Assembly (NCBI RefSeq): GCF_000507245.1
Contig: NC_023035.1
Coordinates: 3,577,570-3,641,569, forward strand
Direction of reading: 5' to 3'
Source: Salinispira pacifica
Lineage (GTDB): Bacteria > Spirochaetota > Spirochaetia > DSM-27196 > Salinispiraceae
DNA: 64,000 bases
The notes under the pieces were generated by a model that worked only from the letters and a program-made list of their open reading frames with translations, was not told the origin of the DNA and made no database searches. The translations under genes and the position numbers were made by a program. Positions 2,066 through 13,670 of the stretch are shown here, one piece after another (position 1 is the stretch's first letter; every line of letters starts with the position of its first letter).

Positions 2066-2081
2066 ACACTATATATGCTTG
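2066..2081 (+). promoter_or_regulatory. Candidate NrdR box
   Basis: ACACTATATATGCTTG matches the published NrdR-box consensus (acaCwAtATaTwGtgt) perfectly in the left half and core and poorly in the right half, about 12 of 16 positions. It overlaps the -35 hexamer of the RNR promoter, as expected for a repressor of ribonucleotide reductase. A weaker partner (about 10 of 16) is at 2028-2043. NrdR normally binds paired boxes; the start-to-start spacing of 38 bp is not the commonest, so the second site is doubtful. Confidence 0.45.
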
Positions 2082-2107
2082 ACATATGTCGATCATTAAA
2101 TCATACT
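2079..2107 (+). promoter_or_regulatory. Promoter of the RNR island
   Basis: TTGACA (2079-2084), 17-bp spacer, CATACT (2102-2107). The predicted transcription start at about 2113-2115 coincides with the first strand of the cobalamin riboswitch P1 stem, which supports both calls. The perfect dyad GACATATGTC (2081-2090) overlaps the -35. Confidence 0.65.
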
Positions 2108-2112
2108 TTTGA

Positions 2113-2270
2113 CATCAGGTAATGCCGCAGAGAATAACCCTGCAGCGGAAGTCCGGTGAAAATCCGGCGCAGCCCCCGCTACTGTAATGCAGACGAAATC
2201 CGAACATGCCACTGGGAAACCGGGAAGGCCGGAGAGTAGGACGAAGCAAAGCCAGGAGACCTGCCTGAAA
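2113..2270 (+). ncRNA. Cobalamin (B12) riboswitch
   Basis: The B12 box GCCACTGGGAAACCGGGAAG starts at 2208. Upstream are the other conserved blocks: AAGTCCGGTGAAAATCCGG (2149-2167), then GCAGCCCCCGCTACTGTAA to about 2188. TCAGGT at 2115-2120 can pair with the CCTGA near 2264-2268 to close P1. It lies in the leader of nrdA. A large stem-loop follows (TTCTCCG near 2330 with CGGAGAA near 2378), and the nrdA ribosome binding site AAGGAGG lies further down, so the expression platform may act by attenuation or by access to translation. Cobalamin riboswitches upstream of class I RNR operons are known (Streptomyces); there B12 turns the oxygen-dependent enzyme off when a B12-dependent class II enzyme can work. 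Confidence 0.93.
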
Positions 2271-2447: not shown

Positions 2448-5411
2448 ATGAGAGTAAGCCATGTTCGCAAGCGCGACGGCAGACAGGGGGAATTTGACTT
2501 CTCCCGGATACGCTCGGCCCTGAGCAGAGCGTTTGAAGCCGGCGGGGAAGGCAGAGAAGAAACGGGCGAAAACGAGCACCACGACAAGGTGGAAGCAACC
2601 GCTGCTGAGATTGAAAAGATGATTCGGTCATGGGAGGACGCTCAACTGGCGGCTATTGGCCCCGGAGCGGAGCTGCCCGCCATCCCCGTAGAGGAAATAC
2701 AGGAAATGGCCGAGACGGCTTTGATGAAGTGCGGGTACTTCGAAACAGCCAAACGCTACATCCGTTACAGGTATCACCACGGATTGGAGCGAAGAGAAAC
2801 CGGTCGCCAACGAAAAGAAGACGCCGAGAGCGGGAAAATGGCGGTGGCCACCGGCAGCGGCCAGAGGGTCAGCTTTTCCCGAGAAAATCTGGAAGCGTAT
2901 TTGAACCAGCAGCGCCAACTCCTCGGCAAAGTAAAGGCCGCCGAAATTGACAGCAGCCGCATAAGCCGCATGGTTCTGGAAGGGCTTGGCGAAACGGTGA
3001 GCACCGCAGAACTCAGGCTCCTCAGCGTTCAAGCCGCAGCCGGGCTCATAGAAGAGGACCCGGTGTACGATGAATACGCAGCCCTGCTCCTGCGCCAGGC
3101 ACATGCGCGGGAACTGCTGGCCTCCGAGGCTGGAGAAAGCGGGTATTTTACCGCATACCGTCAAGGCTTTATCCGGGAAATCAACCGGGGCATCGAACTC
3201 TCATACTTCGATCCCCGCCTCGCCGAATTTAATGTAGAGGCAATGTCTCAGGCCATAAAACCCGAACGGGATATGGAATTACGCTACATCGGCAGCGAGA
3301 CCCTGCGCGAGCGCTATCTCCTGCAGATTGAAGGCAAGCCCTCGGAAACCTATCAGGGTTTCTGGATGCGGGTCGCAATGGGCCTTGCTCTGAATGAGGC
3401 TAATAAAGAAGAAAAGGCCCTGGAGTTCTACGAGCTTATGAGCAGCCTTCGATTTATTCCATCTACCCCCACGCTTTTCCACGCAGGATTGGAACATCCC
3501 CAGCTTTCAAGCTGCTATCTTTCCACGGTGAACGACGATCTCTCGCATATTTTCAAGGTGATGGGCGACAATGCGGCCCTTTCCAAGTGGTCGGGCGGAA
3601 TAGGAAACGACTGGACACGCGTTCGGGGCACCGGCGCTTGGATTGCCAGCACCAAGGTGCACTCCCAGGGAGTCATCCCCTTTCTGAAAATCGCCAACGA
3701 CGTCACCGTCGCCATTAACCGCTCGGGCAAGAGGCGGGGAGCGACCTGCGCCTACCTCGAAACATGGCATTACGACATTGAAGATTTCCTCGATCTGCGC
3801 CGCAACACAGGCGACGACAGACGCCGCACCCCGGACATGAACACCGCCAACTGGATACCCGACCTGTTTATGAAGCGGGTTGAGGCCCAAGGCGAATGGA
3901 CCCTGTTCTCCCCGGATGAGACCCCCGACCTGCATGACCTATACGGTTCGGACTTCGAGAAACGATACGAGGAGTACGAAGCGGCTGCGGCAAGGGGCGA
4001 GATCAATCTCTTCAAAAACGTTGAAGCCGAAAAGCTTTGGCGAAAGATGCTCTCCAGGCTCTTCGAAACCGGTCACCCCTGGATAACCTTCAAGGATCCC
4101 AGCAATATCCGCAGTCCGCAGGATCACGCGGGGGTGGTGCACAATTCCAACCTTTGCACCGAAATAACCCTCAACAATTCGTCTGACGAAACTGCAGTGT
4201 GCAACCTGGGCTCGATAAACCTTCCCCGGCATCTGCGCGCTATTTCTGATGAAAGCGGCGGGGATAATAATACCGGTGCAGCATTCGTTGAACTCGACGA
4301 AGAGCTTATCGCCGGGACAGTTTCCACCGCCATCCGCATGCTGGACAACGTCATCGACATCAATTACTACCCCACCGAAGAAGCCCGGCGCAGCAATATG
4401 CGACACCGGCCCATCGGCCTGGGCATACTTGGATTCCAGGACGCCCTGTTCATGCAGGGTCTCGGCTTCCATCACGAAGAGGCTCTGGCCTTTGCCGACA
4501 GATCCATGGAGGTTATTTCCTGGAACGCCATAATGGCCAGCTCCCAGCTCGCAGCCGAAAAAGGTGCTTATGACAGCTTCAAGGGCAGCAAGTGGGACAG
4601 GGGCATTCTTCCCCAGGACAGTCTGGACATCCTTGAAGCCCAGCGGGGCATTGACATTGACGTTCCCCGTGGCGGAGCTCTGGATTGGGAGCCGGTTCGG
4701 CAATCGGTTAAGAAACACGGCATGCGAAACTCGAACACCATGGCAATCGCCCCCACGGCGACCATCTCTAACATCGCAGGTGTCTACCCCTGCATAGAGC
4801 CGGCGTACAAGAACCTCTATGTAAAGAGCAATATGTCCGGCGAATTCACTGTTGTGAACCGCTACCTGGTCCAGGAGCTCAAGGCCATGGACCTGTGGAA
4901 CGACCAGATCCGCGAACTGCTCAAATTCAGGGACGGCTCGGTTCAGGAAATAACCCAGATCCCCGCCGAACTACGGGAGCGCTATCTTGAAGCCTTCGAG
5001 ATTGATCCGGTTACCCTGCTTCGCTTCACCGCCAGGAGAAGCAAATGGATAGACCAGAGCCAAAGCCACAACGTCTTTATGAAGGGAAGCTCAGGCAAAA
5101 TGCTGGATACCATCTACCGCAGCGCTTGGCGTATGGGATTAAAAACCACCTATTATCTGAGAACTCTGGCCGCGAGCCAGATTGAAAAATCAACCCTGGA
5201 TGCAAAGGTCTACGGCTACACCCAGAAACGGGGTGCAGGGGCAAGTGCAGGCGGGGATGAAAGTTCGCCGGCTACAGGCAGCACTCCCGAGAACCAGCCG
5301 GTTGCAAAAGTCGCAGGTGTTGGTCTGGCTCTTGCCGCTGCTCCCATGACGGCGGTTCAGGGAGCTGAAATTTGCAACCTTCTGGATCCCGACTGCGAGG
5401 CTTGCCAGTAA
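2448..5411 (+). CDS. nrdA: Ribonucleoside-diphosphate reductase, catalytic subunit
   Basis: The catalytic alpha subunit (987 aa) reduces ribonucleotides using a thiyl radical. I start it at the ATG at 2448 behind AAGGAGG; the frame is open further upstream but that runs through the riboswitch. An N-terminal ATP-cone (about 1-110, VRKRDGRQGEFDFSRI) provides allosteric activity control. Visible active-site features are Cys356 and Cys585 (redox pair), the NLCTE segment with thiyl Cys570 and Glu572, CNLGSINLP after Cys585, the tyrosine pair Tyr902-Tyr903 for radical transfer, and the C-terminal shuttle pair Cys983/Cys986 (CEACQ). The Tyr dyad and the adjacent small subunit indicate class I rather than class II. 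Expression is expected to depend on B12 through the riboswitch and perhaps on NrdR. A stem-loop separates it from nrdB. Confidence 0.95.
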   Translation: MRVSHVRKRDGRQGEFDFSRIRSALSRAFEAGGEGREETGENEHHDKVEATAAEIEKMIRSWEDAQLAAIGPGAELPAIPVEEIQEMAETALMKCGYFETAKRYIRYRYHHGLERRETGRQRKEDAESGKMAVATGSGQRVSFSRENLEAYLNQQRQLLGKVKAAEIDSSRISRMVLEGLGETVSTAELRLLSVQAAAGLIEEDPVYDEYAALLLRQAHARELLASEAGESGYFTAYRQGFIREINRGIELSYFDPRLAEFNVEAMSQAIKPERDMELRYIGSETLRERYLLQIEGKPSETYQGFWMRVAMGLALNEANKEEKALEFYELMSSLRFIPSTPTLFHAGLEHPQLSSCYLSTVNDDLSHIFKVMGDNAALSKWSGGIGNDWTRVRGTGAWIASTKVHSQGVIPFLKIANDVTVAINRSGKRRGATCAYLETWHYDIEDFLDLRRNTGDDRRRTPDMNTANWIPDLFMKRVEAQGEWTLFSPDETPDLHDLYGSDFEKRYEEYEAAAARGEINLFKNVEAEKLWRKMLSRLFETGHPWITFKDPSNIRSPQDHAGVVHNSNLCTEITLNNSSDETAVCNLGSINLPRHLRAISDESGGDNNTGAAFVELDEELIAGTVSTAIRMLDNVIDINYYPTEEARRSNMRHRPIGLGILGFQDALFMQGLGFHHEEALAFADRSMEVISWNAIMASSQLAAEKGAYDSFKGSKWDRGILPQDSLDILEAQRGIDIDVPRGGALDWEPVRQSVKKHGMRNSNTMAIAPTATISNIAGVYPCIEPAYKNLYVKSNMSGEFTVVNRYLVQELKAMDLWNDQIRELLKFRDGSVQEITQIPAELRERYLEAFEIDPVTLLRFTARRSKWIDQSQSHNVFMKGSSGKMLDTIYRSAWRMGLKTTYYLRTLAASQIEKSTLDAKVYGYTQKRGAGASAGGDESSPATGSTPENQPVAKVAGVGLALAAAPMTAVQGAEICNLLDPDCEACQ

Positions 5412-5482: not shown

Positions 5483-6475
5483 ATGGCAATCATCAACAAC
5501 AGTAAGACCGACCCGAATAAAATCCTGCCCATGACGTACTCATGGGCCAGGCAGCATTACAAGGACGGGGTAGCGAACAACTGGGTTCCCGAGGAAATCC
5601 CCATGCAGGACGACATAGAGCTCTGGAAATCCGGACGCCTGAGCGACGCGGAGCGGCACCTGATTATGTGGAACCTTGGATTTTTCAGCACTGCCGAAAG
5701 CCTGACCGCAAACAACATTGTTCTGAGCGTGTACAACCACGTCACCAATCCCGAGTGTCGGCAGTACCTGCTGCGCCAGGCCTACGAGGAGGCGGTGCAC
5801 ACCGACACATTTATCTACTGCTGTGATTCCCTGGGTCTGGACCCCGACCAGCTCTACGGCATGTATGAGACTATCCCCTCCATCAAGGAGAAGGACGACT
5901 TTGTCATCAACCTCACCGAAGGAATCCTGGATCCACATTTCTCAACCGTCGGCAGCGACAACATCAGACGGTTCATCCACGACCTCATCGGCTATTACGT
6001 TATAATGGAAGGAATATTCTTCTACGCCGGCTTCGCCATGATGCTGGCCCTCAAGCGCCAGAAAAAAATGGTTGGCATTGGCGAGCAGTTCGAGTACATC
6101 ATGCGGGACGAGAGCCTGCACCTTGCCTTCGGCGCTGACCTCATTAACACCATCGTCGCCGAAAATCCCGATATCTGGACCGATGAATTCAAGGCTGAGG
6201 TCACAAAGCTCATCGCCGAGGCGGTGGAACTGGAAAAGGTTTATGCCAGAGACGCATGCCCCAACGGCATACTGGGTTTCTCCTCGCAGCAGTTCTGCGA
6301 CTACGTCGAGCACATCGCAGACCGCCGCCTTGAGCGGATAAATCTCAAAGCAATCTACGGGAAACCAAATCCCTTCCCCTGGATGAGCCAGTCCACCGAC
6401 CTTTCCAAGGAGAAAAACTTCTTCGAAACCAGGGTAACCGAGTACCAAATAGCCGGCAACCTGGACTGGGATTAG
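5483..6475 (+). CDS. nrdB: Ribonucleotide reductase small subunit, class Ic type (Phe replaces radical Tyr)
   Basis: This 330-residue ferritin-like radical-generating subunit has the metal ligands Glu72 (TAES), Glu103 and His106 (EAVH), a later Glu in VIMEGIFF, and Glu-x-x-His in RDESLH. The position four residues after His106, where class Ia/Ib enzymes carry the radical tyrosine, is Phe110 (HTDTF). The first ligand is Glu rather than Asp. Both features match the Chlamydia class Ic R2 subunit, which uses a Mn(IV)/Fe(III) cofactor in place of a tyrosyl radical. The ATG follows GAGGAGAAAAC. It lies 71 bp after nrdA and should share its transcript. The class assignment is read from residues; the cofactor is inferred from the family. 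Confidence 0.93.
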   Translation: MAIINNSKTDPNKILPMTYSWARQHYKDGVANNWVPEEIPMQDDIELWKSGRLSDAERHLIMWNLGFFSTAESLTANNIVLSVYNHVTNPECRQYLLRQAYEEAVHTDTFIYCCDSLGLDPDQLYGMYETIPSIKEKDDFVINLTEGILDPHFSTVGSDNIRRFIHDLIGYYVIMEGIFFYAGFAMMLALKRQKKMVGIGEQFEYIMRDESLHLAFGADLINTIVAENPDIWTDEFKAEVTKLIAEAVELEKVYARDACPNGILGFSSQQFCDYVEHIADRRLERINLKAIYGKPNPFPWMSQSTDLSKEKNFFETRVTEYQIAGNLDWD

Positions 6476-6549
6476 AGGGCGAACAAAAAACACACGGCTA
6501 CCCGTACCATTAACCACGAAGCATTGATAAACATAAAAGGAGACAGACA

Positions 6550-8979
6550 ATGGAAACCACGCAGATATCAGTAATAAGCAGAGACGGTGAAATTCGCAAC
6601 TTCGATATCTCCCGTATAGAAAATGCCGTTTCGAAGGCATACGCCGCTGTAGCCCACTTGGACAGCCAGGCAGGATGGCCATCTGTAACGCCACACAACA
6701 TTGCAGTTAAGGTTAGAGAAAAAATAATTTCATCAATAGCCGAGCTGAATACAGAGCATGGAATTGAGCCCATCAGCGTAGAGATCGAAAGAATTCAGGA
6801 TGCTGTGGAACAGACGCTCATGGAAATGGAACTCTTCAAGCAGGCCAAGGCCTACATGCTTTATCGTTCCAAGCATGGGGAGCTTCGCAGCTTCGATGCC
6901 GCCATGCTGGACATCAGCAATACAATGGACGGCTACCTTGGGAAATCCGATTGGCGGGTAAACGAAAACGCAAACGTGAACTACAGCCTCGGCGGCCTCA
7001 TTCTCCATAATTCCGGGGCGATAACCGCTAATTATTGGCTCAACAGCATCTATTCTCCGGAGGTTGCCAAGGCTCACAAGAGCGCAGCCTTTCATATACA
7101 CGATTTATCGATGTTTTCGGGTTACTGCGCAGGCTGGTCCCTTCGCCAGCTCATTGCCGAAGGCCTGGGCGGGGTGAGGGGTAAAATATCCTCCACCCCG
7201 GCAAAACATCTGGTAACCCTGGTCCAGCAAATGGTGAATTTCCTCGGCATTATGCAGAATGAATGGGCAGGCGCCCAGGCATTTTCCAGTTTCGACACGT
7301 ATCTGGCACCCTTCGTGCGCGAAGACGGGCTGGATCAGGCAGGGGTGAAGCAGGCTCTGCAAAGTTTTATCTACGGGGTGAACACCCCCAGCCGCTGGGG
7401 AAGCCAGGCTCCGTTTACTAACATCACCCTGGACTGGATGGTCCCTGGGGATCTGGCCGACAAGGCCGCAGTGGTCGGCGGCATTGAGCTTGACTATAGC
7501 TATGGTGACCTCCAAGCGGAGATGGACATGATCAACCGGGCGTTTCTGGAATTGATGATTGAAGGCGACGCGTCGGGACGGGGTTTTCAATATCCCATCC
7601 CCACCTACAATATCACCAAGGACTTCGCCTGGAATAGTGAAAATGCCGAGCTCTTATTCAGAATGACAGGTAAATACGGCACTCCGTATTTCCAGAATTT
7701 CGTAAACTCCGACCTCAATCCCGGTGATGTCCGCTCAATGTGCTGCAGGCTCCAGCTGGACAAGCGCGAGCTGCGCAAACGGGGGGGAGGGTTGTTCGGC
7801 AGCGATGAGTTCACCGGCTCAATAGGTGTTGTAACTATTAATCTTCCCCAAATTGCCCACCTTGCCGCCGACCGCCACGATTTCCTTGCCCGCCTTGACG
7901 AGCTTATGAATCTTGCAAGTGAAAGCCTGGAGACCAAGCGCGTGGTTGTGCAAAAGCTCCTGGACCAGGGACTGTTCCCCTATACAAAACGATACCTCAG
8001 CCATTTGAACAACCATTTCTCCACCATCGGGATTGTCGGCATGAATGAGGCCACGGAGAATTTCATGGGCAAAAACCTTCTGGACAACGAAGCTCGGGCT
8101 TTCGCCTTGGAAATACTGGACCACATGCGCAGCCGTATGGCCGATCTTCAGGAGAGCACCGGCAGCTTGTACAACCTGGAAGCCAGCCCGGCGGAGGGAA
8201 CAAGCTACCGCCTGGCTCTGCACGATACAAAAAATCACCCTGGCATAATAACCGCGGGCACCGAAGAACAGCCCTTCTACACAAACTCGACCCAGCTGCC
8301 CGTGGATGCAACAGCAGATATTTTGGACGCCTTGGATCTGCAAGATGACATGCAGTCCAGGTACACCGGTGGAACGGTGTTCCACGGATTTCTGGGAGAA
8401 AGCATAAAGGACTGGAGGGCCTGCGCGGATCTGGTCAGAATTATCGCCCACAACTACCGCCTACCCTATTTCACCATATCGCCAACATTCTCCATTTGCC
8501 CGGTCCACGGATATTTGGACGGCGAGGTGCACGAATGCCCCCATTGCAGCGGCGAAACCGAAGTCTACAGCCGCATAGTCGGATATTACCGCGCCCTGAA
8601 AAACTGGAACCAGGGCAAGAGTCGAGAATTCGTCGAGAGGAAGACCTATGTTCATACCATAGACAGCGCGGGGATGGTTCGCCCCGATACTCCAACCATC
8701 GCAAACACCTTGATCGCAAAAGCCGAGGCTGCGCATAGCGCTCCCAGCCTGGAGTACTACTTTACCCCAAGCTGTCCCAAATGTCCCTCGGTGAAATCGA
8801 CACTGGAGAATGTGGCTGCGAATTTTACCCCGGTAGATGCGGCATCTGAGGGTGGTGCGATTCTGGCTGCGGAAAACGGCATATCATCGGTTCCAACGGT
8901 TATTGCTAGGGATCGCAATGGCAGAGAGGTGTTCAGGAGCAGCGATCTGAATCGCATCGCCGAGTACATCCGCAAATGA
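6550..8979 (+). CDS. nrdD: Anaerobic ribonucleoside-triphosphate reductase with C-terminal glutaredoxin-like domain
   Basis: This 809-residue glycyl-radical enzyme is class III RNR. An ATP-cone lies at about 5-105 (ISRDGEIRNFDISRIENAV). The catalytic barrel follows, then a zinc site of two Cys pairs (CPVHGYL and CPHC), and the glycyl radical loop RIVGYYRA with Gly678. Most NrdD proteins end about 25-50 residues after this glycine. Here about 130 more residues follow, including a thioredoxin-fold segment with CPKC (Cys742/Cys745) and a cis-Pro motif SSVPTV (Pro782), resembling glutaredoxin/NrdH. It may supply electrons in cis, replacing or assisting formate (inference). The ATG is preceded by AAAGGAGA. 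The nrdG start overlaps its stop (ATGA), implying translational coupling. Confidence 0.95.
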   Translation: METTQISVISRDGEIRNFDISRIENAVSKAYAAVAHLDSQAGWPSVTPHNIAVKVREKIISSIAELNTEHGIEPISVEIERIQDAVEQTLMEMELFKQAKAYMLYRSKHGELRSFDAAMLDISNTMDGYLGKSDWRVNENANVNYSLGGLILHNSGAITANYWLNSIYSPEVAKAHKSAAFHIHDLSMFSGYCAGWSLRQLIAEGLGGVRGKISSTPAKHLVTLVQQMVNFLGIMQNEWAGAQAFSSFDTYLAPFVREDGLDQAGVKQALQSFIYGVNTPSRWGSQAPFTNITLDWMVPGDLADKAAVVGGIELDYSYGDLQAEMDMINRAFLELMIEGDASGRGFQYPIPTYNITKDFAWNSENAELLFRMTGKYGTPYFQNFVNSDLNPGDVRSMCCRLQLDKRELRKRGGGLFGSDEFTGSIGVVTINLPQIAHLAADRHDFLARLDELMNLASESLETKRVVVQKLLDQGLFPYTKRYLSHLNNHFSTIGIVGMNEATENFMGKNLLDNEARAFALEILDHMRSRMADLQESTGSLYNLEASPAEGTSYRLALHDTKNHPGIITAGTEEQPFYTNSTQLPVDATADILDALDLQDDMQSRYTGGTVFHGFLGESIKDWRACADLVRIIAHNYRLPYFTISPTFSICPVHGYLDGEVHECPHCSGETEVYSRIVGYYRALKNWNQGKSREFVERKTYVHTIDSAGMVRPDTPTIANTLIAKAEAAHSAPSLEYYFTPSCPKCPSVKSTLENVAANFTPVDAASEGGAILAAENGISSVPTVIARDRNGREVFRSSDLNRIAEYIRK

Positions 8980-9794
8980 AAGAGCCCGTAGCCAAAATGA
9001 TGAAAACAGAGACCTTCTGTGATCAAAAAGCCGGAAAGCTTCCCGGCATATCTCCTCATTCCCCGCACCAGCGTAGTGACGGTCTCTCCCGCCTGGGGTT
9101 CTACCCCACGAGCCTTGTGGATTTTCCCGGGCGGGTTGCCTCAGTTCTATTTACCGCCGGCTGCCCTTTGGCCTGCCCCTACTGCCACAATGCAGAGCTC
9201 ATACATGGCAGGCACCCGGAGTCATTTCTTTCCATGGCAGAGGTACTTACAGCTTTAGCAGCCCGGCGAAACCGAGTCAGCCACGTAGTGATCAGCGGTG
9301 GCGAGCCGCTGGTGCATCCCGGACTTTACGATTTCATAGACGAACTTGCAGACATCGGTATGAGCATAAAGCTGGATACATCGGGAGTTCTGCCCTCCGC
9401 TCTCGAAAAGGTTCTCAACCATCCTGCGCTGGTGTATGTAGCCATGGATGTAAAAACCACACCCTCGAACTACGCCCTCGTCGGCGGAAAATCGGGCATG
9501 GGAAAAAGAGTTCTTGAAAGCCTCAGAATTCTGAGGGCTTGGAAGGATAGCGAAGAATTTTCATTGCATAGCACCAGGGAATATGAATTGCGGACCGTAT
9601 GCGCTCCGGGAATTATTAATGAAATAGCTCTCAAGGAGATATCCGAGCTGCTAAATCCTGGGGAGAAATGGACGCTCAGCAGATACAAGGGCGAAAAGGT
9701 CCTCGATCCAGAAATAAATGAGCTGCCAATGTTGAGTGAAGAGCAAATAGTACAGCTTGAAAGCTGTTGGGAAAGACATGGATGTATATGCTGA
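8976..9794 (+). CDS. nrdG: Anaerobic RNR activating enzyme, radical SAM
   Basis: This 272-residue radical SAM protein generates the glycyl radical on NrdD. The [4Fe-4S] motif CxxxCxxC is CPLACPYC with Cys63, Cys67 and Cys70. The SAM-binding ISGGEPL follows at about 106-112. It belongs to the longer activase type that starts with a GFYPTSLVDFPG segment. The first ATG overlaps the nrdD stop codon by four bases; an in-frame ATG-ATG pair at 8997-9002 is an alternative start that would remove seven residues. It is the last gene of the island. Confidence 0.94.
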   Translation: MKEPVAKMMKTETFCDQKAGKLPGISPHSPHQRSDGLSRLGFYPTSLVDFPGRVASVLFTAGCPLACPYCHNAELIHGRHPESFLSMAEVLTALAARRNRVSHVVISGGEPLVHPGLYDFIDELADIGMSIKLDTSGVLPSALEKVLNHPALVYVAMDVKTTPSNYALVGGKSGMGKRVLESLRILRAWKDSEEFSLHSTREYELRTVCAPGIINEIALKEISELLNPGEKWTLSRYKGEKVLDPEINELPMLSEEQIVQLESCWERHGCIC

Positions 9795-10143: not shown

Positions 10144-11552
10144 TAGGGCCTCCTGAAAAAACCTTAACCCTATACATATAAATGAAATACTGCTAGAATT
10201 TGTGCATGAAGTGCACGGTTTTTGCGAAAACCAGGCAAAAACCCTTGCACCTGTTTTCTTGGCGGGAGGGATTATGTATAGAACTGAGGACAAAACGCAG
10301 CTTTCATTTGAAGGTTTCTATCTCCCATTTGGAGGCAAACTGAACCCCAATAACCGCTGGGTACAGCTTGCTGATTTAATTCCCTGGGAAGATTTAGAAG
10401 CAGAATACGCCTCACAGTTTGCTATCGAAAGCGGGCAAGGCGCTCCGGCAATACAGTTTCGGACAGCTCTGGGTGCCCTGATTATAAAGGAAAAATTAGG
10501 AATTACAGATGAGGAAACCGTGGAGCAGATTCGTGAGACGCCTTACCTGCAATATCTCATCGGAATGCAGGGGTACCAGGATGAGGCTCCCTTTGATCCA
10601 TCAATGATGGTCCATTTCAGAAAGCGAATCAGCATGGACATGATCACTCACGCAAATGAATTGATTATTGCCGAAGAACGTAAAAAAAAACTGAAGATGA
10701 TACGGAAGCTGAAAAAGAAGAAAATCCTGAGGTAGAGAATAGCGGGAAGCTGCTGATTGATGCCACCTGCGTACCCGGTGATATTCGATATCCCACCGAT
10801 CTTTCGCTTTTAAATGAGAGCCGGGAAAAACTGGAAACCATCATAGACGTTCTTCACGCAGAACGGGCCAAGGGGGCGACAAAACCCCGAACCTACCGGC
10901 AGAAAGCGCGAAAGGATTTTTTAGTGGTCATCAAAAAGCGCAGAGCAAGCAAGAACAAGATTCGCAAAGCAATACGCAAGCAGCTGGGGTACATACGCCG
11001 TAATCTCCGGCATATAGAGCAATTAGCGACGGTAGTCGGCTTGAATAGCCTGTCTCGGCAGCAGTACCGGAATCTGTTGGTTATCTCGGAAGTCTTTCGC
11101 CAGCAGGCACTGATGTATGAATCCAAAGATCATCGAATATCGGGCCGGATTGTGAGTATCTCCCAACCCCATATTCGACCCATCGTCAGGGGAAAAGCCG
11201 GTACCCCGGTTGAGTTCGGCATGAAGATTTCATCCGCCAATATTGACGGGTACATGTTTATCGATCGCTGTTCATGGGATCCATACAACGAGTCTGGTGA
11301 TTTAGTCATGCAGGCTGAAAAGTACAGGCACAGATATGGTGTGTATCCGGAATCAATACACGCCGATCAGATTTACCGCACCAGGGGCAACCGGAATTGG
11401 TGCAAGGAACGGGGAATCAGATTATCCGGTCCGCCGCTTGGTCGTCCACCGAAAGATCGTGGAGAAAATCGAGAACGAAAGAAGCTGGCCCGTCAGGATG
11501 AGCTGGATAGAATAGCTGTCGAAGGGACATTTGGCAGAGCAAAACGACGGTA
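10144..11552 (+). mobile_element. IS1182/IS5-like element, copy A, right end missing
   Basis: The left inverted repeat TAGGGCCTCCTGAAAAAA starts at 10144 and is identical to that of copy B. Copies A and B agree almost base for base until GACGGTA, where A stops at 11552. A then continues into an unrelated IS3-family fragment. The last ~118 bp, including the right inverted repeat, are absent. Confidence 0.85.
10274..11552 (+). pseudogene. IS1182/IS5-like transposase, frameshift at A9 and truncated
   Basis: The first frame (10274-10735, behind GGGAGGG) encodes a DUF772-like N-terminal domain (FRTALGALIIKEKLG; DPSMMVHFRKRIS). At an A9 run (10682-10690) a -1 slip opens the catalytic frame: the first catalytic Asp lies in LLIDATCVPGD, the second in IHADQIYRTRG, and the Glu in VEGTFGRAKRRY. 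The C-terminal ~35 residues present in copy B are missing here because the element is cut at 11552. It is probably inactive. The same A9 arrangement occurs in copy B. Confidence 0.85.
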
Positions 11553-12048
11553 TGGAAATGTCAACATCGGTGCAGTCCCTAAATACCCAACATATTTTTA
11601 AGCAGCCTTTTCTTGAGTAACAAATTTTTCCCTGTAAATGGCAGGAGGCAATCCACCCTCATTCACGGTACTGATCCGCTTGCGATTATAGTAAACCATG
11701 ACATAGCGCCAGATTACAGTCTTCACCTGTTCCCTGGACATTTTCCTTGTATTCATTTTGTACAACTTTTCTTTTTTCAGTGTTGCGAAGAAGCTTTCCA
11801 TCCGGGCATTATCGTAGCACTTCCCGACGTCACTCATGCTCTGAATAGCCCGATAACTACCAAGCAACTCTTTAAATTGATCACTCGTATACTGGCTCCC
11901 AGCATCACTGTGTACGAGCACACCGCTTCCGGGAGTTCTGCTTTGATATGCATCAGCAATGGCCTGAATGCACAATTCCTTTTTCATATGCTCATCCATT
12001 GCCAAGCTAACAATCTCTCCTCCGAAACAGTCGAGAACAGGCGCTACA
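11553..12048 (-). mobile_element. IS3-family fragment between the two IS1182-like copies
   Basis: About 496 bp of an IS3-like element, minus orientation, is joined to truncated copy A at one side and cut by the left inverted repeat of copy B at the other. Neither the 5' half of the IS3 element nor the missing end of copy A occurs elsewhere in the window. Confidence 0.75.
11598..12048 (-). pseudogene. IS3-family OrfB transposase, C-terminal fragment
   Basis: The visible ~150 residues are the C-terminal half of the integrase core. GSGVLVHSDAGSQYTS carries the second catalytic Asp, and CYDNARMESFFATLKKE carries the catalytic Glu. The tail has RYVMVYYNRKRIS, typical of the IS150/IS3 groups. Reading continues upstream of the first Met (APVLDCFGGEIVSLA) until copy B interrupts it at 12048, so the N-terminus with the first Asp is lost. 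Confidence 0.88.
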
Positions 12049-13670
12049 TAGGGCCTCCTGAAAAAACCTTAACCCTATACATATAAATGAAATACTGCTA
12101 GAATTTGTGCATGAAGTGCACGGTTTTTGCGAAAACCAGGCAAAAACCCTTGCACCTGTTTTCTTGGCGGGAGGGATTATGTATAGAACTGAGGACAAAA
12201 CGCAGCTTTCATTTGAAGATTTCTATCTCCCATTTGGAGGCAAACTGAACCCCAATAACCGCTGGGTACAGCTTGCTGATTTAATTCCCTGGGAGGATTT
12301 AGAAGCAGAATATGCCTCACAGTTTGCTATCGAAAGCGGGCAAGGCGCTCCGGCGATCCGTTTCCGTACAGCATTGGGTGCCCTGATTATAAAGGAAAAA
12401 TTAGGAATTACAGATGAGGAAACCGTGGAGCAGATTCGTGAGACGCCTTACCTGCAATATCTCATCGGAATGCAGGGGTACCAGGATGAGGCTCCCTTTG
12501 ATCCATCAATGATGGTCCATTTCAGAAAGCGAATCAGCATGGACATGATCACTCACGCAAATGAATTGATTATTGCCGAAGAACGTAAAAAAAAACTGAA
12601 GATGATACGGAAGCTGAAAAAGAAGAAAATTCTGAGGTAGAAAACAGCGGAAAGCTGCTGATTGATGCCACCTGCGTACCCGGTGATATTCGATATCCCA
12701 CCGATCTTTCGATTTTAAACGAGAGCCGGGAAAAACTGGAAACCATCATAGACGTTCTTCACGCAGAACGGGCCAAGGGGGCGACAAAACCCCGAACCTA
12801 CCGGCAGAAAGCGCGAAAGGATTTTTTAGTGGTCATCAAAAAGCGCAGAGCAAGCAAGAACAAGATTCGCAAAGCAATACGCAAGCAGCTGGGGTACATA
12901 CGCCGTAATCTCCGGCATATAGAGCAATTAGCGACGGTAGTCGGCTTGAATAGCCTGTCTCGGCAGCAGTACCGGAATCTGTTGGTTATCTCGGAAGTCT
13001 TTCGCCAGCAGGCACTGATGTATGAATCCAAAGATCATCGAATATCGGGCCGGATTGTGAGTATCTCCCAACCCCATATTCGACCCATCGTCAGGGGAAA
13101 AGCCGGTACCCCGGTTGAGTTCGGCATGAAGATTTCATCCGCCAATATTGACGGGTACATGTTCATCGATCGCTGTTCATGGGATCCATACAACGAGTCT
13201 GGTGATTTAGTCATGCAGGCTGAAAAGTACAGGCACAGATATGGCGTGTATCCGGAATCAATACACGCCGATCAGATTTACCGCACCAGGGGCAACCGGA
13301 ATTGGTGCAAGGAACGGGGAATCAGATTATCCGGTCCGCCGCTTGGTCGTCCACCGAAAGATCGTGGAGAAAATCGAGAACGAAAGAAGCTGGCCCGTCA
13401 GGATGAGCTGGATAGAATAGCTGTCGAAGGGACATTTGGCAGAGCAAAACGACGGTACTCAATGGGTCGATTAATGACAAAGCTTGCTGAGACCAGTGAA
13501 TCGCAGGTGGCCATGATCATGCTGGTGATGAACCTGGAAAAGATTCGGAAGGATCTTTTTTACGTCTTTATCATAGCTATGCTACGCAGCCGAAAAATTA
13601 CGAAGTCTCATTTCCCCGTGGTATTGGGGTATGGTAATATGGCAGCATAGGGTTTTTTCAGGAGGCCCTA
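12049..13670 (+). mobile_element. IS1182/IS5-like element, copy B, complete
   Basis: Perfect terminal inverted repeats (TAGGGCCTCCTGAAAAAA at 12049; its complement ending at 13670) bound a 1622-bp element. The flanking TA/TAAT allows a very short target duplication, but none can be proven because the left flank is another IS fragment. The right end lies inside a receiver-domain gene. Near identity with copy A suggests recent duplication. Confidence 0.88.
12179..13650 (+). CDS. IS1182/IS5-like transposase, two frames joined by -1 shift at A9
   Basis: Start ATG 12179 follows GGGAGGG. Frame 1 ends with TAG at 12640. A -1 slip on the A9 run at 12587-12595 would join it to the second frame, giving about 490 residues, a normal length for IS1182-type transposases. 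Catalytic residues are as in copy A, and the C-terminal YSMGRLMTKLAETSE segment is intact here. Two explanations fit: programmed -1 frameshifting, common in IS elements, or an ancestral or sequencing-derived one-base loss from an A10 run. Both copies share it, so it is not a random mutation of one copy. Confidence 0.82.

Follow-up and report, generated by a model that had tools for sequence, protein, structure and literature searches.

The leader of the nrdA-nrdB-nrdD-nrdG operon of Salinispira pacifica is, judging from its sequence, most likely a two-input OFF switch acting on the complete B12-independent RNR set of the cell. S. pacifica L21-RPul-D2 comes from a hypersaline mat; it is an aerotolerant spirochaete that lives strictly by fermentation (PMC4511686). 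The DNA analysed here (the window) comprises 64,000 nucleotides, corresponding to bases 3577570-3641569 of its complete single-contig genome (G000; 3,782,798 bp). Within the window, a pair of NrdR-type boxes, a promoter and a cobalamin riboswitch aptamer precede the genes for class I and class III RNRs, and the same genome encodes NrdR and a B12-dependent class II RNR. The features are as follows.

2026-2041, + strand: NrdR-like box 1 (CCCCCATATAAAGAGT), with a 24-bp spacer to box 2
2066-2081, + strand: NrdR-like box 2 (ACACTATATATGCTTG), overlapping the -35
2079-2107, + strand: predicted sigma-70-type promoter TTGACA-17-CATACT, expected start about 2113-2115
2100-2282, + strand: cobalamin riboswitch aptamer (RF00174), core P1 formed by 2115-2120 and 2263-2268
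2276-2288, + strand: GAACGGGAGGTTC, invariant in three nrd leaders and holding the Shine-Dalgarno-like GGGAGG at 2280-2285
2293-2325, + strand: candidate uORF GTG...TAA (VIRILNSRNI, then stop), start codon 7 nt after GGGAGG
2448-5411, + strand: nrdA, class I RNR large subunit with ATP-cone; Shine-Dalgarno AAGGAGG
5483-6475, + strand: nrdB, class I RNR small subunit
6550-8979, + strand: nrdD, class III anaerobic RNR with ATP-cone
8976-9794, + strand: nrdG, class III activase (TIGR02495 NrdG2), overlapping nrdD by 4 nt

Class I RNR needs oxygen and class III RNR its absence, and class II RNR works with or without it. In the proposed mechanism, transcription would begin at helix P1, so that the aptamer is made first, and binding of adenosylcobalamin would hold down nrdA-nrdB-nrdD-nrdG; we infer the ligand, the sign of the response and the co-transcription of nrdDG. 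When B12 is present, the B12-dependent and oxygen-indifferent class II enzyme would provide dNTPs. When B12 is short, the class I and class III enzymes would be released together, and oxygen would decide which protein works. As the second input, NrdR, which responds to dATP, would sense dATP and ATP, bind the box pair over the promoter and repress initiation, adding dATP feedback on both RNR operons.

Regarding the aptamer, the earlier note had placed a B12 riboswitch in this leader, and the Cobalamin covariance model (RF00174) matches it at full length (all 189 model positions, 1-189) with 96.0 bits against a gathering score of 31.5 (E 1.2e-22), giving the only Rfam match within the 64-kb window. 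The promoter consists of TTGACA (2079-2084) and CATACT (2102-2107) with 17-nt spacing, matching the consensus at 10 of 12 positions. As the 5' strand of core P1, UCAGGU (2115-2120), begins 7 nt 3' of the -10, the start is expected at or beside P1, as had been supposed before. Promoter-like patterns are barely commoner than in shuffles (9 observed, 5.9 +/- 2.3 in shuffles), and the call therefore takes its weight from a geometry conserved in two relatives, a member of the same family (G002) and a complete genome of the same order (G007), in both of which the -10 is followed after 7-8 nt by UCAGGY. In each of the three leaders, L5 of the aptamer forms a GAAA tetraloop that, by inspection, cannot make Watson-Crick pairs with the GGGAG loop, so that the usual L5-L13 kissing would not be available in this form. 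Such kissing is common in cobalamin riboswitches and is not required by the Rfam model. Its apparent loss counts against the scheme, and other tertiary contacts are conceivable. Two further B12 switches in the S. pacifica genome precede corrinoid uptake genes, and one adjoins B12-synthesis genes.

The step from ligand binding to gene expression is the weakest of the scheme. Since no intrinsic terminator was seen between the aptamer and nrdA, this step probably proceeds via translation of a conserved short ORF and/or Rho-dependent termination; a rho gene is present in S. pacifica. The three leaders share GGGAGG, a gap of 6-7 nt, an ATG or GTG start codon and an ORF of 10, 8 and 8 codons, respectively, the counterparts in the relatives reading MTASSFHF (G002) and MTAYLFNP (G007), each followed by a stop, and the next approximately 100 nt diverge. 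GAACGGGAGGTTC is absent from the other B12 riboswitch loci readable in the three genomes. In the B12 riboswitches of Mycobacterium tuberculosis metE and ppe2, leader uORFs take part in control, possibly with Rho (PMC11260477). S. pacifica resembles these in combining a B12 switch with a short (here candidate) leader ORF; it differs in phylum and in the targets, and its ORF follows the aptamer immediately, a good distance 5' of nrdA. By analogy, our best guess for the downstream step is a riboswitch-controlled uORF, with or without Rho. The strongest competitor, which has somewhat less than an even chance, is that the platform acts only at the ribosome-binding site of nrdA or nrdD or at an unrecognised terminator, the uORF being accidental and GAACGGGAGGTTC forming a P13-like hairpin. 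GAAC and GUUC are able to pair, the leaders number only three, and their peptides are dissimilar past the first codons; the conservation of GGGAGG, spacing, start codon and near stop in all three, followed by divergent sequence, speaks against this alternative. In folding of the platform, the growing RNA frequently sequesters GGGAGG in a hairpin that extends across the ORF, with partners that differ per species, and a single shared structure was not obtained from the three leaders.

As for the reach of the preferred two-input switch, nrdA, nrdB, nrdD and nrdG likely constitute one operon, as the gaps 5' of nrdB and nrdD are short (71 and 74 nt) and contain no terminator-like site on the coding strand, and the sole coding-strand promoter candidate near nrdD (6524-6551; 9 of 12 matches) overlaps the nrdD start codon. 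The earlier note had seen no obvious promoter belonging to nrdD and nrdG, and the search for a strong one 5' of nrdD agrees with it. It is improbable, in view of this, that the riboswitch governs class I only and that nrdDG escapes B12 by an unrecognised promoter of its own, for example FNR- or Rex-like. The gap before nrdD, 74 nt here and 135 nt in G002, could house such an element, and promoters of other types would escape a consensus scan, so a weak internal promoter is conceivable; against this, no good promoter was found 5' of nrdD, nrdD and nrdG overlap, and in G007 the leader sits directly 5' of nrdD-nrdG, which argues that class III is a genuine target. A weak Pfam match at NrdD residues 735-788 corresponds to a C-terminal glutaredoxin-like CxxC domain, and a CPxCP tail similar to the end of this NrdD is also found in NrdD of G002 and G007, which suggests a fused electron donor. 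Just 5' of the nrd leader (974-1616) are genes for a HigB-like toxin and a HigA-like antitoxin, and directly 3' of the operon (10202-13650) there are two near-identical transposase-type ORF sets, approximately 1.9 kb apart.

The leader motif, defined as the aptamer end plus GGGAGGTTC, was found only in G000, G002 and G007 among 46 genomes of the order and 393 of the phylum. G002 carries a matching leader 5' of nrdA-nrdB-nrdD-nrdG, and in G007 a distance of 1.7 Mb separates the class I genes from the leader and its nrdD-nrdG. NrdD of S. pacifica is 63% identical to that of G007, and NrdB 79% to that of G002. The three genomes are most simply explained by a switch that originally controlled nrdDG and by a later insertion of nrdAB between the leader and nrdD. 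The full picture, in which NrdR boxes, an aptamer at +1 and a mini-ORF switch the oxic and anoxic B12-free RNRs as a unit that arose by insertion of nrdAB into a riboswitch-nrdDG unit, is tentative and has less than an even chance of holding in every part. Among twelve nrdA relatives from elsewhere, an Rfam scan placed a B12 riboswitch nearby only in Pyrinomonas, which was again the sole match in a regular-expression scan of all 80 relatives. In Pyrinomonas methylaliphatogenes (L067:5124-5336), the riboswitch is followed by a terminator-like hairpin with a T-run, a thioesterase-like gene and then nrdA. The class I locus of G007 (L124, G007:C1:863500-870500) has an ATP-cone ORF of approximately 437 aa, probably the small subunit, 5' of a short large subunit, and a separate B12 riboswitch starts just 3' of these class I genes.

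B12 repression of these isozymes calls for a B12-dependent isozyme in the same genome, and the earlier note had predicted a class II nrdJ elsewhere. A search with PF17975 located an RTPR-like class II RNR gene at genome positions 1369555-1371849 (764 aa), 2.2 Mb from the nrd operon. The protein comprises an N-terminal ATP-cone, RNR_Alpha (PF17975) and the class II insertion domain (PF21995), the latter two above their own cut-offs. TIGR02505 (monomeric RTPR) scores 275 bits, below its curated cut-off of 340, so the equivalog name is not earned. The nearest solved structure is Lactobacillus RTPR 1l1l, with which the active-site NPCGEI, the FCNL-type second cysteine and the C-terminal CxxxxC align. 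The passing Pfam domains and the aligned RTPR cysteines make a class II enzyme likely despite the TIGR02505 score. G002 and G007 each encode a class II enzyme (79% identical), and 15 other genomes among the 61 searched contain relatives that are 70-79% identical. A search of the S. pacifica genome with PF02867 matched only nrdA and missed this gene; the resulting reading that the genome has no class II enzyme was dropped once PF17975 found it. A standard Pfam search that misses an RTPR-type class II gene would wrongly imply a lethal circuit, and annotation pipelines may overlook ATP-cone RTPR-type class II RNRs. That the leader is instead an ON switch activating the operon when B12 is present is very improbable: the sequence does not prove the sign and folding gave no single platform structure, whereas the operon encodes B12-independent isozymes of a B12-dependent enzyme and the published nrd examples are repressive.

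The second input of the proposed OFF switch would be the box pair. Pairs were scored against ACACWATATATWGTGT, taken here as the NrdR box consensus, with C and G given double weight and a maximum of 36. The pair 5' of nrdA reaches 26 with a spacer of 24 bp and is the second-best in 116 kb of the S. pacifica genome, the best being that of the class II RNR gene (29 of 36, spacer 27). In a random-window control, 1.35% of 250-nt windows reach 26, which is an upper bound as the source loci contain true sites. The leader pairs in the relatives score 28 (G002, spacer 25) and 25 (G007, spacer 26), and box 2 keeps its position in G002 (ACACCATATATGGTTG) and approximately so in G007. In the literature, NrdR sites consist of two boxes separated by 14-17 or 24-27 bp (PMC12051234), each box having a conserved C and G (PMC12051234, PMC9110341). 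These two bases are nine apart in box 1 and in both class II boxes, and the G of box 2 lies one base early, a weakness of that assignment. The candidate box over the -35 had been pointed out earlier, and box 1 is added here as its partner. Clear NrdR boxes are also found at several class II orthologues, for example ACGCTATATATGGTGT. The nrdR gene predicted in the earlier note was found by genome search at G000:C1:1779462-1779905 (184 bits, cut-off 124.65), and all three genomes with the leader encode nrdR. Features of a group II intron were noticed near nrdR (L091:2343-4399).

Several parts of this system have known counterparts. In Streptomyces coelicolor, a B12 riboswitch controls the class Ia operon nrdABS (Borovok 2006, via PMC4991794), and NrdR boxes are known at both the class Ia and class II operons (PMC9110341). 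S. pacifica likewise has a B12 riboswitch 5' of a class I RNR operon in a genome with a class II enzyme (NrdJ in S. coelicolor). The S. coelicolor operon, as cited there, is without class III genes, whereas in S. pacifica nrdDG follows nrdAB; unlike that of S. coelicolor, the S. pacifica class II enzyme appears to be of the monomeric RTPR type with an ATP-cone. B12-elements 5' of nrdDG in Desulfovibrio vulgaris and Desulfuromonas have been predicted to mediate B12 repression where NrdJ exists (PMC545781), and the arrangement in G007 is the same; class I genes are not described with those elements, unlike in the S. pacifica operon, and Desulfovibrio is without nrdR (PMC4009431), whereas S. pacifica has it. 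In Streptococcus, NrdR box pairs have a long spacer of 24-27 bp and box 2 at the -35 (PMC12051234), which the predicted spirochaete sites resemble on both points. B12 control of nrdDG is thus not a new idea (PMC545781). Separate B12 switches on nrdAB and on nrdDG are already published, and the joined operon seems to be new: a search of the literature, mainly of non-subscription journals, found no account of class I and class III genes joined in an operon under a single B12 switch.

The operon offers a concise example of how a cofactor may drive the choice between isozymes of an essential enzyme, in which both B12-free RNRs would be placed under one sensor. Its leader also extends the candidates for riboswitch-uORF control beyond mycobacteria. 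For S. pacifica itself, the arrangement allows a simple test of B12 supply versus oxygen as the setter of RNR expression in an aerotolerant anaerobe.
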